This document shows, one piece after another, positions 8,271-13,075 of a stretch of DNA of 34,509 bases. Numbering within the stretch: position 1 is the stretch's first letter; each line of letters begins with the position of its first letter. The stretch lies in the NCBI GenBank assembly GCA_021817225.1, contig JAKAVR010000018.1, forward strand, positions 1 through 34,509. Direction: 5' to 3'. Source of the DNA: Thermoplasmata archaeon (GTDB lineage Archaea; Thermoplasmatota; Thermoplasmata; Sysuiplasmatales; Sysuiplasmataceae). A model generated the notes under the pieces. That model saw only the letters and a list, made by a program, of their open reading frames with translations. It was not told the DNA's origin and did not search any database. The position numbers and the translations under genes are program-made.

Positions 8271-8945
8271 ATGGATGTAAAGAAAACCCTGCTTGTGACT
8301 GGCGGTACGTCCGGAATTGGAAATGCAACAGTCCACCTCTTCATTGCAAAGGGATGGAATGTGGTCACATGCGGCAGGGACACGGGTGCCATTGCAAAAC
8401 TGCAATCCGAGTTCGGAGACGACAAATTCCTTGGCCTTACAGCAGACATTAGGCTTGAAAACCATGTCTCCAGCATTCTGGAGGAAACGCGCAGGCGGTT
8501 TGGCCTGATAGATGTGTGTGTTCTCAACGCGGGGACACTGGGACCCGCGCCGCTTCCCCCCGTGCTGAAAACGGACATGATGGAACTGAGGCGGACATAT
8601 GAAACGAATGTGTTTGCGAACTTCAACTTGATGAAGAAAATAGCTGGAATCCTAAGGTCACCCGGTCTGATTGTGCACATGACATCGGATGCTGCAGTCC
8701 AACCGTATCCCGGCTGGGGAGCTTATGGTTCATCAAAGGCAGCTATGAGACAGCTTGTGGAAATCCTGAGGGAGGAGAGCAGGGGCACCGGCCTGAGTGC
8801 AATCAATTTCGACCCGGGCGATGTTGATACTCGAATGCATGCTCTTGCAGTCCCTGATGCCGACAGGAACGCCCTGAGAAAAACATCAGACGTTGCCCTC
8901 GAGCTGTATGCGTTGATTCTGAAGGAACTTGAGGTGAATCAATGA
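8271..8945 (+). CDS. Short-chain dehydrogenase/reductase (SDR)
   Basis: A Rossmann-fold NAD(P)-dependent oxidoreductase of unknown substrate, 224 residues. The sequence shows the cofactor motif VTGGTSGIG (about 9-17), the structural NAG motif (VLNAG), catalytic Ser in HMTSDAAVQ, and the active-site YxxxK as AYGSSKAA. The frame is open further upstream, but the ATG at 8271 puts the first beta strand (KKTLLVTGG) directly after the start and has an upstream TATA-like box, as usual for SDRs. The stop overlaps the next gene by ATGA (8942-8945), so it is translationally coupled to the QueA-like gene. It could supply or remove a carbonyl in the same pathway, but nothing in the sequence shows this. 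Confidence 0.88.
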   Translation: MDVKKTLLVTGGTSGIGNATVHLFIAKGWNVVTCGRDTGAIAKLQSEFGDDKFLGLTADIRLENHVSSILEETRRRFGLIDVCVLNAGTLGPAPLPPVLKTDMMELRRTYETNVFANFNLMKKIAGILRSPGLIVHMTSDAAVQPYPGWGAYGSSKAAMRQLVEILREESRGTGLSAINFDPGDVDTRMHALAVPDADRNALRKTSDVALELYALILKELEVNQ

Positions 8946-9988
8946 GCAGATATCAGTCAGGACCGAGGCATCAATTCCAGGTCTGGGATTCTCACCTCCC
9001 ACCCGAATTCTATGGACGCAGCAGGGATGATGTCAGCCTGCTGGTCATCGAAAATGCGTCCGGAACGTATTCATCGGCCAGGTTCGCCGAACTGCCTGAG
9101 TTCCTCAAAAGGGGGGATATTCTTGTGTTCAACGACAGCGCCCTGGTGCCGTCGTCTCTCCCCGTGTTCGATGTTTCAAGAAGGCAGCAAGGTTGGCTTA
9201 ACGTAGGGACTTCAAGATTGAACGGGAAGATACTCGTCGAACCCCGGCCAAAGTCATTCAACAGGATGCAGACGGAAGAGGGCAATGTGCTCGCTGTCAT
9301 TGGAAACGGCAGGGAAATAGAACTGTCCAGAAGACACAGCACATTCTCCAGATTCTTCTGGGCCGATGCCCGCATGGGAGAAGATGAACTCAGGGAAATG
9401 CTTGGAAGGTATGGTGCACCTCTGACATACGACCACATACCGTTCAAGCTCCCCCTGAGCTTCTACTCCACCGTCGTTTCCAGGGTGCCTGGTTCGGCGG
9501 AGTTTCCTTCCGCTTCGAGGCCATTCAGCAGAAGAGTAATGGCATCCCTTCGGCAGAAGGGAATACTGCAGGCGTACCTGACTCTTCACTGCAACCTGAG
9601 CCCGCTTGAGCCGGACGAATTCAGCAGCTCGCCCTTCCTCCCTGACGAGTATTATGAAATACCCGAGGCCACGGCCACGGCAGCTGAGGAGGCAAGGGAC
9701 TCCGGCGGCAGGGTCATAGCGGTGGGTACATCGGTGGTGAGGGCACTCGAGTCGTCGTACCGGGGCAGAATTGTGCCGGGCAGTGGGACCACGGACCTGT
9801 TCATCAGGCCGGGACGCAGGCCGAAGTCCGTTGATGGACTGCTGACCGGCCTCCACGATCCGGAAAGTTCACATGTGGAGATGATTTCGGCGTTTCTCGA
9901 TGATTCGCTGCTGAGGTCCGCATACACCACCGCATCCGCAATCGGGTTTCAGTGGCATGAGTTTGGAGACCTTTCGCTTATAGCATGA
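8942..9988 (+). CDS. QueA-like S-adenosylmethionine:tRNA ribosyltransferase-isomerase homologue, divergent
   Basis: A 348-residue member of the QueA family (COG0809). In bacteria QueA moves the ribosyl part of SAM onto preQ1 in tRNA to make epoxyqueuosine. Recognisable blocks: RSRDDVSLLVI (about 26-36), HIPFKLPLSFYSTVVSRVPG (165-184), LHCNLSPLEPDEF (215-227), IAVGTSVVRALES (about 256-268), TDLFIRPGR, DGLLTGLHDPESSHVEMISAF and the terminal FGDLSLI. The bacterial core motif PTAGLHFT is replaced by PSASRPFS (189-196), and HVGLGTF by HCNLSPL. Archaea normally make archaeosine, not queuosine, so the substrate may differ. It overlaps the SDR gene by 4 bases. Family assignment is firm; function is uncertain. 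Confidence 0.82.
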   Translation: MSRYQSGPRHQFQVWDSHLPPEFYGRSRDDVSLLVIENASGTYSSARFAELPEFLKRGDILVFNDSALVPSSLPVFDVSRRQQGWLNVGTSRLNGKILVEPRPKSFNRMQTEEGNVLAVIGNGREIELSRRHSTFSRFFWADARMGEDELREMLGRYGAPLTYDHIPFKLPLSFYSTVVSRVPGSAEFPSASRPFSRRVMASLRQKGILQAYLTLHCNLSPLEPDEFSSSPFLPDEYYEIPEATATAAEEARDSGGRVIAVGTSVVRALESSYRGRIVPGSGTTDLFIRPGRRPKSVDGLLTGLHDPESSHVEMISAFLDDSLLRSAYTTASAIGFQWHEFGDLSLIA

Positions 9989-10084: not shown

Positions 10085-11716
10085 ATGCCTGTAATCGACA
10101 TACAGTATGATGAACTTAGGCAACTTTCGGGCCTGGAAAAGGACAAAGTGTGGTTCATTGAAAGGATTCCAATGACGGGCGCAAGCTTTGAGGGAATCGA
10201 GGGAAATGCGCTGAGATTTGAATTCTTTCCAAACAGGCCCGACCACTACTCCGTAGAAGGCATCGCAAGGACAATGAAGTCGCTCTACTCGGAAAGCACC
10301 GCCCTTCCCGAATACAGCTCGTCACCGGGACAGTATGCGTTGAGCGTGGATGAGAATGTGAGTGACATCAGGCCCGTGATCGTCGGAGCCGTGATAAAGA
10401 ACCTTGAATTCAACCAGGGAATGCTCAAATCACTGATAGACCTGCAGGAGAAGCTTCACCTGACCATCGGCCGGAAGAGGCGGAAGGTCGCAATAGGGAT
10501 ACATGACATGTCCGCCATCACTTTCCCCCTCAAATACGCCGCATACGCAGGAGCCTCCTACTCGTTTTCACCCCTTGGATTCGACAGGGAAATGACGCTT
10601 TCTCAAATAATTGCCGAGCATGAAAAGGGGCAGGAGTACGGCTGGATTGTGGGTGGCGGCCCCTACCCGCTGATCACGGATGCGGGAGGCAGGGTACTTT
10701 CAATGCCACCGATCATAAACGGAAACATGACACAGCTCACGGATCGCACGAGGAATGTGTTCATCGACGTTACAGGGACGAGCGAGGAGGCGTGCAGCGG
10801 TGTGCTCAACATAATCAGCACCGCCCTTGCAGACAGGGGCGGCAGCATTTGCGACGTCACTATCGAAAGCGGAGGAAGGAAGAGGAAGACACCTGACCTT
10901 TACAGACGGGCTGTAGATGTCAGCCTCCGCTCATTGAATGAGATGCTGGGCGTTTCAATCGACGGAAACCTTGCAATCAGACTGCTCAGGCGGATGGGCC
11001 ACTTCTGCGAGCTGAAGGGCGAGAAAATCGAAGTCAGTGTGCAGCCTTTCAGGATGGACATAATGCATCCTGTCGACATCATTGAAGACGCTGCAATCAG
11101 CTACGGCTATGACAACTTCGGTGTCAGCCCGCCGACATCTCAGACAGTCGGCGGATTGACAGGTATGACTTCCGCCTCCGAGCTTGTTTCAGAGATCATG
11201 ATCGGTTACGGCTATTCACAGGTCATAACATTCATGATTTCCGGCACGCACTCCGAGTTCGACAGGATGTTTGTGCCAGAATCGGAGTCAGTCAGCATTC
11301 TGAACCCCGTTCTTGAGGAAAGCAACATACTGCGACTGTCGCTGCTGCCTGGGATGCTCCTCCTTCTCGAGGCAAACAAGCACAACGAGCTCCCGCAGAG
11401 GATATACGAGATCGGTGACGTCCACCGCCCGGGGCGTACAAGGTATTTCACTGCTGTGAGCATTCACCCAAGGGCCACTTTCGCGGAAATCAAGTCTCTG
11501 GCGGACGCCATAGGAAGGGACCTGAAGCTCGGACTCAAAACGGCCGAGTCCGGGGACACTCGTTTCATCGCGGGAAGACAGATGTCAATCTTGCGCGATG
11601 GTGAAGCTGTGGGCATCTTCGGCGAACTGCATCCCGAAGTGATTACAAACTTTAATCTCTATAATCCCATTGTCGCCCTCGAGATGGACCTCGACAAGGC
11701 ACTCAGGCTGAGGTAG
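10085..11716 (+). CDS. pheT: Phenylalanyl-tRNA synthetase beta subunit
   Basis: Beta chain of the alpha2-beta2 enzyme that charges tRNA-Phe. The 543 residues match the archaeal/eukaryotic-type beta chain, shorter than bacterial PheT. N-terminal region: VWFIERIPMTGASFEG and LRFEFFPNRPDHYSVEGIAR (typical B1 region, about 23-60). Central B3/4-like editing region: GRKRRKVAIGIHDMSAI. B5 domain: about 280-360, with MDIMHPVDIIEDAAISYGYDNF. C-terminal catalytic-like fold: ILNPVLEESNILRLSLLPGML and EIGDV. The start is the ATG 27 bases after a strong TATA box. pheS is not in the window. The last three codons and the TAG stop fall inside the 5' end of the following tRNA-Ser gene, a 10-base overlap. Confidence 0.95.
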   Translation: MPVIDIQYDELRQLSGLEKDKVWFIERIPMTGASFEGIEGNALRFEFFPNRPDHYSVEGIARTMKSLYSESTALPEYSSSPGQYALSVDENVSDIRPVIVGAVIKNLEFNQGMLKSLIDLQEKLHLTIGRKRRKVAIGIHDMSAITFPLKYAAYAGASYSFSPLGFDREMTLSQIIAEHEKGQEYGWIVGGGPYPLITDAGGRVLSMPPIINGNMTQLTDRTRNVFIDVTGTSEEACSGVLNIISTALADRGGSICDVTIESGGRKRKTPDLYRRAVDVSLRSLNEMLGVSIDGNLAIRLLRRMGHFCELKGEKIEVSVQPFRMDIMHPVDIIEDAAISYGYDNFGVSPPTSQTVGGLTGMTSASELVSEIMIGYGYSQVITFMISGTHSEFDRMFVPESESVSILNPVLEESNILRLSLLPGMLLLLEANKHNELPQRIYEIGDVHRPGRTRYFTAVSIHPRATFAEIKSLADAIGRDLKLGLKTAESGDTRFIAGRQMSILRDGEAVGIFGELHPEVITNFNLYNPIVALEMDLDKALRLR

Positions 11717-11805
11717 CTAAGCCCGGTTCAAGGCGCCGGCCTTGAGATGTGACAGGAAAGCCGGTGTCGCTCTGCGACTCGGGAGTTCAAATCTCCCCCT
11801 CAGCG
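11707..11805 (+). tRNA. tRNA-Ser (anticodon UGA) with a 12-nt intron
   Basis: The acceptor GCTGAGG (11707-11713) pairs with CCTCAGC (11798-11804); the discriminator G (11805) is typical of serine tRNA, and only CC of the CCA is encoded. The long variable arm GTCGC-TCT-GCGAC shows a class II tRNA. The T arm is GGGAG/CTCCC around TTCAAAT. The anticodon stem CCGGC/GCCGG encloses 19 instead of 7 bases. Removing 11747-11758 restores loop CTTGAGA with anticodon TGA (11743-11745). The 5' end lies within the pheT coding sequence, and no well-placed TATA box is seen inside pheT, so it may be cut from the pheT transcript. Confidence 0.88.
11747..11758 (+). other. 12-nt intron in tRNA-Ser at position 37/38
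   Basis: ATGTGACAGGAA interrupts the anticodon loop after base 37. CTTG (11741-11744) can pair with CAGG (11753-11756), leaving a 3-base AAA bulge before the anticodon stem. This is a relaxed bulge-helix form recognised by archaeal splicing endonuclease, with the 3' cut expected inside AAA. Confidence 0.75.
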
Positions 11806-11864: not shown

Positions 11865-12878
11865 TCAATTGTGTGCGGATGAAGAAACGGTTGTCCTGTC
11901 TGCGTAGAGCTTCGCATTAATCCTGGGTATGAGGGCGGAAATTACGGCCTGAACCGTGAGCTGCCTCCTGCTTATCTTGCCGTGAGACAGGTATCCGATT
12001 GCACCCTTTTTTGAACCAATGTCCCTTATGCCGCTGACTCTCGACATCACTTCCCCGATGCTCTTCCCCTTCGACACTTCATCCAGGACTGTGGAAGGGT
12101 ACGAAAAGCCCATTCCATGACCGCTTGTGACGGCGCCGCCCCTGTCCATTATTACACAGTATTGCACGTCGTATGCCGAATTCAGTTCCTCCACGGTGAA
12201 CAGGCCGGCCTCTATCCCGATTCCCAGGTCGTTGTCCCTGAGAGATTCCCTGGCCCTCGTCAGGGCGCCCCTTATTGTTTCAGCGCCGAATGGCTGTTCG
12301 GCAACGCCTGAGGATATCCCGTAAGACCTGAAATTCGCCCGCCCTATCTCCCTGCCATAGAGTCCGAACGCGTCCTTGACAGCACCTGATTTGACCCTGT
12401 TGGCTGAACCGATTCCCACGGAAAGCGGGCGGAGCAGTTTTCCCCCTGCGTCGCAATCACCGCCCAGAACACGCGTAGAACTCAATGGAATTCCGTTGAA
12501 AGAGCGCAGCAGTGGCACAACATATGATATCAGAGGCGCGAATCCGTTCCGCTCCCTGATTGAGTTTATTTCCCCGACCCTGAAAGCAGTTGCTTCGGAG
12601 ACCACGATTGCCTTCAGCCCTTTCAGCCTGGTGGAGTAACCGTACGGGTCCTCGAGTTCGGAGATTTCGAATTTGCCACCGAGCCTGCCGCATGCCCGCT
12701 CAAGAGACTTGAGTCTCGTTTCGTACGGCACGACATATTTCCTTGCGCCGGCAGCCATCTTGTCAGAAGTCAGGCCAATGTACACTCTGGAACCGATGGC
12801 AAATGCAAGCCTGAGCATTGATAAATGCCCCTGGTGAAGGCTGTTGAAGGTACCGCCCATGCAGACCGAACCGCTCAT
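11865..12878 (-). CDS. coaD: Fusion of archaeal phosphopantetheine adenylyltransferase and DUF84 (YjjX-like) NTP phosphatase
   Basis: A 337-residue two-domain protein. Residues about 1-145 are an archaeal-type pantetheine-phosphate adenylyltransferase (coenzyme A synthesis) with CMGGTFNSLHQGHLSML (HxGH as HQGH), IGLTSDKMA and the ISSTxxR-like LSSTRVLGG. Residues about 155-337 are a DUF84 domain beginning LSVGIGSANRVKSGAVKDAFG, with IGIEAGLF, GHGMGFSYP and GAIGYLSHGKISR; characterised members hydrolyse inosine and xanthosine triphosphates. The frame is open upstream to 12992, but the ATG at 12878 directly precedes the nucleotide-binding strand and overlaps the stop of the zinc-ribbon gene (ATGA, 12875-12878). 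The fusion may join CoA synthesis with nucleotide pool cleaning or simply share expression; this is inference. Confidence 0.9.
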   Translation of the reverse strand: MSGSVCMGGTFNSLHQGHLSMLRLAFAIGSRVYIGLTSDKMAAGARKYVVPYETRLKSLERACGRLGGKFEISELEDPYGYSTRLKGLKAIVVSEATAFRVGEINSIRERNGFAPLISYVVPLLRSFNGIPLSSTRVLGGDCDAGGKLLRPLSVGIGSANRVKSGAVKDAFGLYGREIGRANFRSYGISSGVAEQPFGAETIRGALTRARESLRDNDLGIGIEAGLFTVEELNSAYDVQYCVIMDRGGAVTSGHGMGFSYPSTVLDEVSKGKSIGEVMSRVSGIRDIGSKKGAIGYLSHGKISRRQLTVQAVISALIPRINAKLYADRTTVSSSAHN

Positions 12879-13075
12879 CTGAAGTACCCCAGATAGACAA
12901 GGATGGCTATCAGGAGCAGGATCATCATGAGGTAGTAGGTGTAAAGCTGGTTTCTCCTTCTCCTGAGCTTCATCCTGTGCTGAGTTTCGCACTGGCTGGA
13001 ACAGAAGGTTGCGTCAATCGGAATTGCCTTGCCGCATTCCTTGCAGTGCTTGTGAGGTGGTATCTTCTCAGGCAT
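12875..13075 (-). CDS. Small zinc-ribbon protein with one C-terminal TM helix (DUF2116-like)
   Basis: 66 residues. Two CxxC-type pairs, HCKECGKAI and FCSSQCETQH, form a zinc ribbon. A basic linker MKLRRRRNQ follows, then one hydrophobic helix (about residues 44-63) ending in YFR. This is the layout of the archaeal DUF2116 family, whose role is unknown. The frame is open to 13159, but the ATG at 13075 removes an unrelated 28-residue extension and fits homologues. It is translationally coupled (ATGA) to the PPAT-DUF84 gene, a pairing that suggests co-expression. The tail anchor would place the ribbon on the cytoplasmic face if the N-terminus stays inside; this is inferred from the basic residues before the helix. 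Confidence 0.8.
   Translation of the reverse strand: MPEKIPPHKHCKECGKAIPIDATFCSSQCETQHRMKLRRRRNQLYTYYLMMILLLIAILVYLGYFR

Follow-up and report, generated by a model that had tools for sequence, protein, structure and literature searches.

How can a tRNA gene work that begins inside the last codons of a protein-coding gene and carries 12 bases too many in its anticodon loop? The question is raised by positions 11707-11805 (plus strand) of a 34,509-nucleotide stretch of DNA (the window) from an uncultured Thermoplasmata archaeon related to Ca. Sysuiplasma. An earlier note, made from the letters alone, had read the locus as a tRNA-Ser(UGA) gene with a 12-nt intron. The Rfam tRNA model (RF00005) matches exactly this interval, discriminator base included, with 44.5 bits against a gathering threshold of 29. 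ARAGORN run with introns allowed reports a tRNA-Ser(TGA) with a 12-nt intron, and run without introns detects no tRNA-Ser(UGA) at 11707-11805; the reading of the earlier note is thus upheld by both programs. The sequence fits a cloverleaf with the acceptor stem GCTGAGG/CCTCAGC, the T-arm GGGAG-TTCAAAT-CTCCC, the UGA anticodon, the long variable arm of an archaeal class II tRNA-Ser and G73 at 11805; CCA is not encoded. The only other tRNA gene in the window is an intron-free tRNA-Ile. A second, intron-free tRNA-Ser(UGA) elsewhere, which the earlier note had named, together with silence of this copy, as one observation that would speak against its reading, was not found among the 39 tRNAs of the genome (95% completeness). 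The next-best DNA matches are the tRNAs Ser(GGA) (80%) and Ser(CGA) (76%).

The intron, ATGTGACAGGAA, was placed at 11747-11758 (plus strand), between tRNA positions 37 and 38. The anticodon stem CCGGC/GCCGG surrounds CTTGAG^ATGTGACAGGAA^A, and removal of the 12 bases leaves the loop CTTGAGA, which is that of most intron-free relatives. In the alignment of family members the intron coincides with the divergent stretch. We compared eight genomes of the family (the Ca. Sysuiplasma group), a comparison that the earlier note had suggested, and found the same architecture in every one: an intron of 12-14 nt and the overlap with pheT are kept in 8/8, and the layout is identical in the nearest named relative, Ca. 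Sysuiplasma superficiale (L091). Because the architecture recurs in all eight, it is more than chance, and the idea of a chance insert was rejected. The tRNA exons vary at a single position among the eight genomes, whereas pheT identity falls to 50%; the intron differs in length and sequence. It might be argued that the 12 bases are no intron but an enlargement of the anticodon loop in a gene copy that is decaying or nonfunctional. When the whole precursor is folded without constraints, its minimum-energy structure indeed departs from the cloverleaf, D-loop bases pairing with the anticodon loop. However, a decaying copy would hardly be the sole Ser(UGA) gene of the genome, nor keep nearly invariant exons with variation limited to the insert, nor carry that insert at 37/38 as do 17 other tRNA genes of the same genome; we regard this explanation as scarcely credible. 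Judged from these sequence comparisons, 11707-11805 is very probably this archaeon's one functional copy of the tRNA-Ser(UGA) gene, from which the 12-nt intron at 37/38 would be spliced out.

Archaeal tRNA introns at 37/38 are recognised through a bulge-helix-bulge (BHB) motif (reviews PMC4090602, PMC4033280). In the minimum-energy fold, exon bases CTTG (positions 32-35 of the tRNA; 11741-11744, plus strand) form the 5′ strand of a central 4-bp helix beside the anticodon stem, with intron bases CAGG (11753-11756, plus strand) as its 3′ strand. It is followed by a 3-nt 3′ bulge, AAA (11757-11759, plus strand), which contains the 3′ splice site. Position, central helix drawn from anticodon-loop exon bases and 3′ bulge are all as in the strict motif (hBHBh′). 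The inner helix h′ that would close a 3-nt 5′ bulge is absent in contrast to that motif; an open 8-nt loop, AGATGTGA, holds the 5′ site, within an intron of only 12 nt. Since the inner helix is missing and the loop open, the motif is a bulge-helix-loop and not a full BHB, and the relaxed CTTG/CAGG pairing that the earlier note had considered possible is borne out by the fold. The same motif was obtained when six family sequences were folded singly; the helix is interrupted in one genome (G006). Across the eight genomes the central helix is paired in 31/32 cells, with U-G/U-A alternation; the exon strand being invariant, pairing is kept from one side and is not two-sided covariation. For the same reason shuffling statistics are uninformative for this helix. 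A sliding control does bear on it: when the partners were moved by 1-3 columns, 11-51% of cells were paired, against 98.6%.

Might the intron nevertheless be effectively canonical in vivo, a minimal inner helix forming so that the splicing enzyme meets an ordinary BHB substrate? It has the canonical central helix and 3′ bulge, and some family members allow one or two additional pairs. But the inner segment TGTGA permits at most one pair, which would close a 3-nt loop, all eight loop bases are unpaired in the predicted fold, and the inner helix is likewise missing from several further introns of this genome. A canonical substrate thus appears unlikely to us, and we retain the bulge-helix-loop for what follows.

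The intron is one of many. Inserts at 37/38 are present in 18/39 tRNA genes of the genome, 14 of them 12-17 nt long, and two other family members (G003 and G004) have a nearly identical set of intron-containing tRNAs. Nearly all 37/38 introns of the genome keep three or all four pairs of the central helix, and the inner helix is missing in many. The intron of tRNA-Ser(UGA) had been described as close to the minimum size for archaeal splicing; with four 12-nt introns in the genome, its size is not special here. In addition, two tRNA genes have apparent D-arm inserts, judged by eye: a tRNA-Ala(CGC) (L008:523-610, minus strand), of which 18 D-loop bases are hidden by the covariance model, and a tRNA-Thr(GGT) (L029), where the insert comes on top of a 12-nt 37/38 intron.

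Which enzyme would cut such introns? One EndA gene was found (L039:715-1779), encoding a protein of 354 aa. PF02778 and PF01974 each match it twice in a single ORF, so that one chain holds two N-domain/C-domain repeats, the organisation of an α′2 enzyme. The second repeat keeps the catalytic Tyr, His and Lys and the bulge-binding Arg, and FRAY, AHARF and RVAHGVRK align with the enzymes of A. fulgidus, A. pernix and ARMAN-2. The alignment shows neither of the features of broad-specificity EndA, a CSL insertion or an ASL with Tyr-Lys. The loop between YG and LxE, FYGNAMGPGLQIS, is short as in A. fulgidus and holds no lysine; the A. pernix CSL is about 10 residues longer, and the Tyr-Lys of ARMAN-2 is missing. 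A two-repeat EndA without insertion is also present in the other members of the class Thermoplasmata that we examined. The genome further has genes for the RtcB ligase and for an archaeal RNase P RNA.

Published reviews confine α4 and α′2 EndA to strict BHB motifs and describe their hosts as poor in tRNA introns, which all sit at 37/38 (PMC4090602, PMC4033280, PMC6379350). The (αβ)2 and ε2 enzymes of Crenarchaeota, Nanoarchaeota and ARMAN cut relaxed bulge-helix-loop introns, and a CSL or an ASL grafted into A. fulgidus EndA broadens its range (PMC6379350, PMC12397907). The present genome resembles those lineages in its relaxed motif class and its high share of intron-containing tRNAs; it differs from them in that the host is a member of the Thermoplasmata and the sole EndA gene found encodes a two-repeat α′2 enzyme without CSL or ASL. 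With the α′2 enzymes of A. fulgidus and T. acidophilum (PDB 1R0V/2GJW, 2OHC) it shares two repeats per chain with the catalytic residues in the second. A. fulgidus EndA, however, accepts strict BHB substrates only (PMC12397907), and many introns here are relaxed. An α′2 EndA without specificity loops, found together with many relaxed introns, is not what the published rule would lead one to expect, and on genomic grounds the lineage therefore looks like an exception to it. We lean slightly towards the broader claim that, in the Ca. Sysuiplasma family and perhaps more widely in Thermoplasmata, bulge-helix-loop introns are routinely processed by an α′2 EndA with neither the crenarchaeal nor the ARMAN loop, in which case the rule that only (αβ)2 and ε2 enzymes process relaxed introns fails. 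This mismatch of intron type and EndA type is the most notable point of the analysis and lay outside the view of the earlier note. Taken as a tRNA intron alone, the 12-nt insert is of a known kind; what is notable is an intron-rich genome with a loop-less α′2 EndA, together with a conserved borrowed stop codon. In this family, where the α′2 EndA has no known specificity loop, introns occupy almost half of the tRNA genes, most are 12-17 nt long and many are without an inner helix; a single purified EndA and a single 99-nt RNA would suffice for a direct test of the enzyme-intron co-evolution model.

The second feature of the locus is its overlap with pheT (10085-11716, plus strand), an ORF for the phenylalanyl-tRNA synthetase beta subunit (TIGR00471, 529 bits). 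As the earlier note had stated, the tRNA 5′ end and the stop codon are shared: the last 10 nt of pheT are the first 10 of the tRNA, the final codons CTG AGG are acceptor-stem bases, and the stop TAG (11714-11716, plus strand) is U8-A9-G10. The overlap is exactly 10 nt, and the stop identical, in 8/8 family genomes. The stop is not the only one borrowed in this way. In tRNA-Leu(UAG), U8-A9-G10 serves as the stop of a gene for an RNA-binding protein (PF01877) in 3/3 genomes checked (G000, G003 and G004; tRNA at L026:455-540 and upstream frame at L026:534-1001, both minus strand, likewise L269 and L237). A literature search returned nothing directly on tRNA genes that overlap pheT or supply a stop codon. 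These two cases indicate that protein genes and tRNAs can share bases over long evolution, and they raise the question how a single transcript serves both. In a relative within the class (G014, locus L050), the pheT frame enters tRNA-Ser(UGA) by 38 nt and stops at the anticodon TGA.

A tRNA-Ser lies just downstream of pheT in 13/22 sampled Thermoplasmata families, as Ser(GGA) in one and otherwise as Ser(UGA) or some form of it, and in none of the loci labelled Archaeoglobales or Methanosarcinales. In many families of the class outside the Ca. Sysuiplasma group the two genes are separated by a spacer, 5 to about 190 nt long, and in others the tRNA is missing there. Since the spacer is found in many families outside this one and the overlap is family-wide within it, the two genes have long been neighbours in the class, and the overlap arose later, when the spacer was lost. 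The family ancestor would have lost the spacer, kept in most related families, and pheT would have adopted the conserved U8-A9-G10 as its stop. The idea that pheT is functionally paired with its cognate tRNA was rejected, the tRNA being Ser and not Phe; the link between a synthetase subunit and a tRNA seen by the earlier note is old synteny.

How is the tRNA transcribed? The earlier note had found no well-placed TATA box and suggested dependence on read-through of pheT. We derived a box A motif from the regions upstream of the other tRNA genes of the genome (consensus AGTTATATA, start near -36). No box A was found at -45 to -20 of tRNA-Ser(UGA), where the score of -5.0 is the lowest of 39 upstream regions; the other tRNA genes score -0.8 to 9.5 over the same positions, most of them above 4. 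Scores at the usual distance are also low for this tRNA in all eight family genomes (-7.9 to 2.3). The first half of the suggestion thus holds. The second half, dependence on read-through, is not established, because a box A-like element, ACTTTAATC, sits inside pheT at -58 (11649-11657, plus strand; motif score 5.9) and is a candidate promoter. A score of at least 5 is reached in only 1.1% of pheT coding windows, and 7/8 family genomes have an element at -58 or -49 with a score of 4.9-7.4, the element of G007 being weak (2.6); across the family the maximum within -75 to -45 ranges from 2.6 to 7.4.

Under strict read-through the tRNA would have no promoter of its own and come solely from pheT transcripts; the RNase P cut would destroy the pheT stop, and tRNA output would compete with PheT synthesis. 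The lack of a box A at the usual distance, here and throughout the family, is what such an arrangement predicts. The recurrence of the upstream element argues against it, given how rarely pheT coding windows score so high. The element overlaps codons of a conserved NF(N/D) protein motif and may for that reason be accidental. Codon choice speaks against strict read-through as well: TTT and AAT stand at the element in 6/8 genomes, whereas pheT genes prefer TTC (127 to 49) and AAC (96 to 46). We consider read-through as the sole source a serious possibility, though one with less than an even chance, and an internal promoter in pheT, predicted from motif and codon usage, somewhat more likely.

From what the DNA itself displays, namely the gene, its intron and motif, the overlap, their conservation and the genes for EndA, RtcB and RNase P RNA, we infer a course of maturation that includes splicing, promoter use and removal of the pheT stop. 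RNA containing the tRNA would be made from the candidate promoter inside pheT (the -58 element, giving a leader of about 20-30 nt) or by read-through. RNase P would trim its 5′ end, EndA would cut the 12-nt intron out of the bulge-helix-loop formed by CTTG with CAGG, and RtcB would ligate the exons into a body of 87 nt, followed by addition of CCA. On a read-through RNA, cleavage by RNase P would take the stop codon away from pheT; a given molecule could then be an intact pheT message or a tRNA precursor, not both.

Other observations concern pheT-linked tRNAs in the class and the genes around this one. At four loci (L051, L053, L059 and L066) the tRNA-Ser(UGA) near pheT seems to bear one or two introns, placed in the D-loop, the anticodon loop or the T-loop, and the EndA of these families also has two repeats without insertion. 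Partial or rearranged copies of tRNA-Ser ends lie 3′ of pheT at L055, L059, L060, L062 and L063; they may be remnants of integration sites or partial duplications. In the window, pheT is preceded by a QueA-like ORF (PF02547, 205 bits; 8942-9988, plus strand), unexpected in an archaeon, QueA belonging to bacterial queuosine synthesis. On the other side, a fused pantetheine-phosphate adenylyltransferase/NTP phosphatase gene (11865-12992, minus strand) ends towards tRNA-Ser(UGA).
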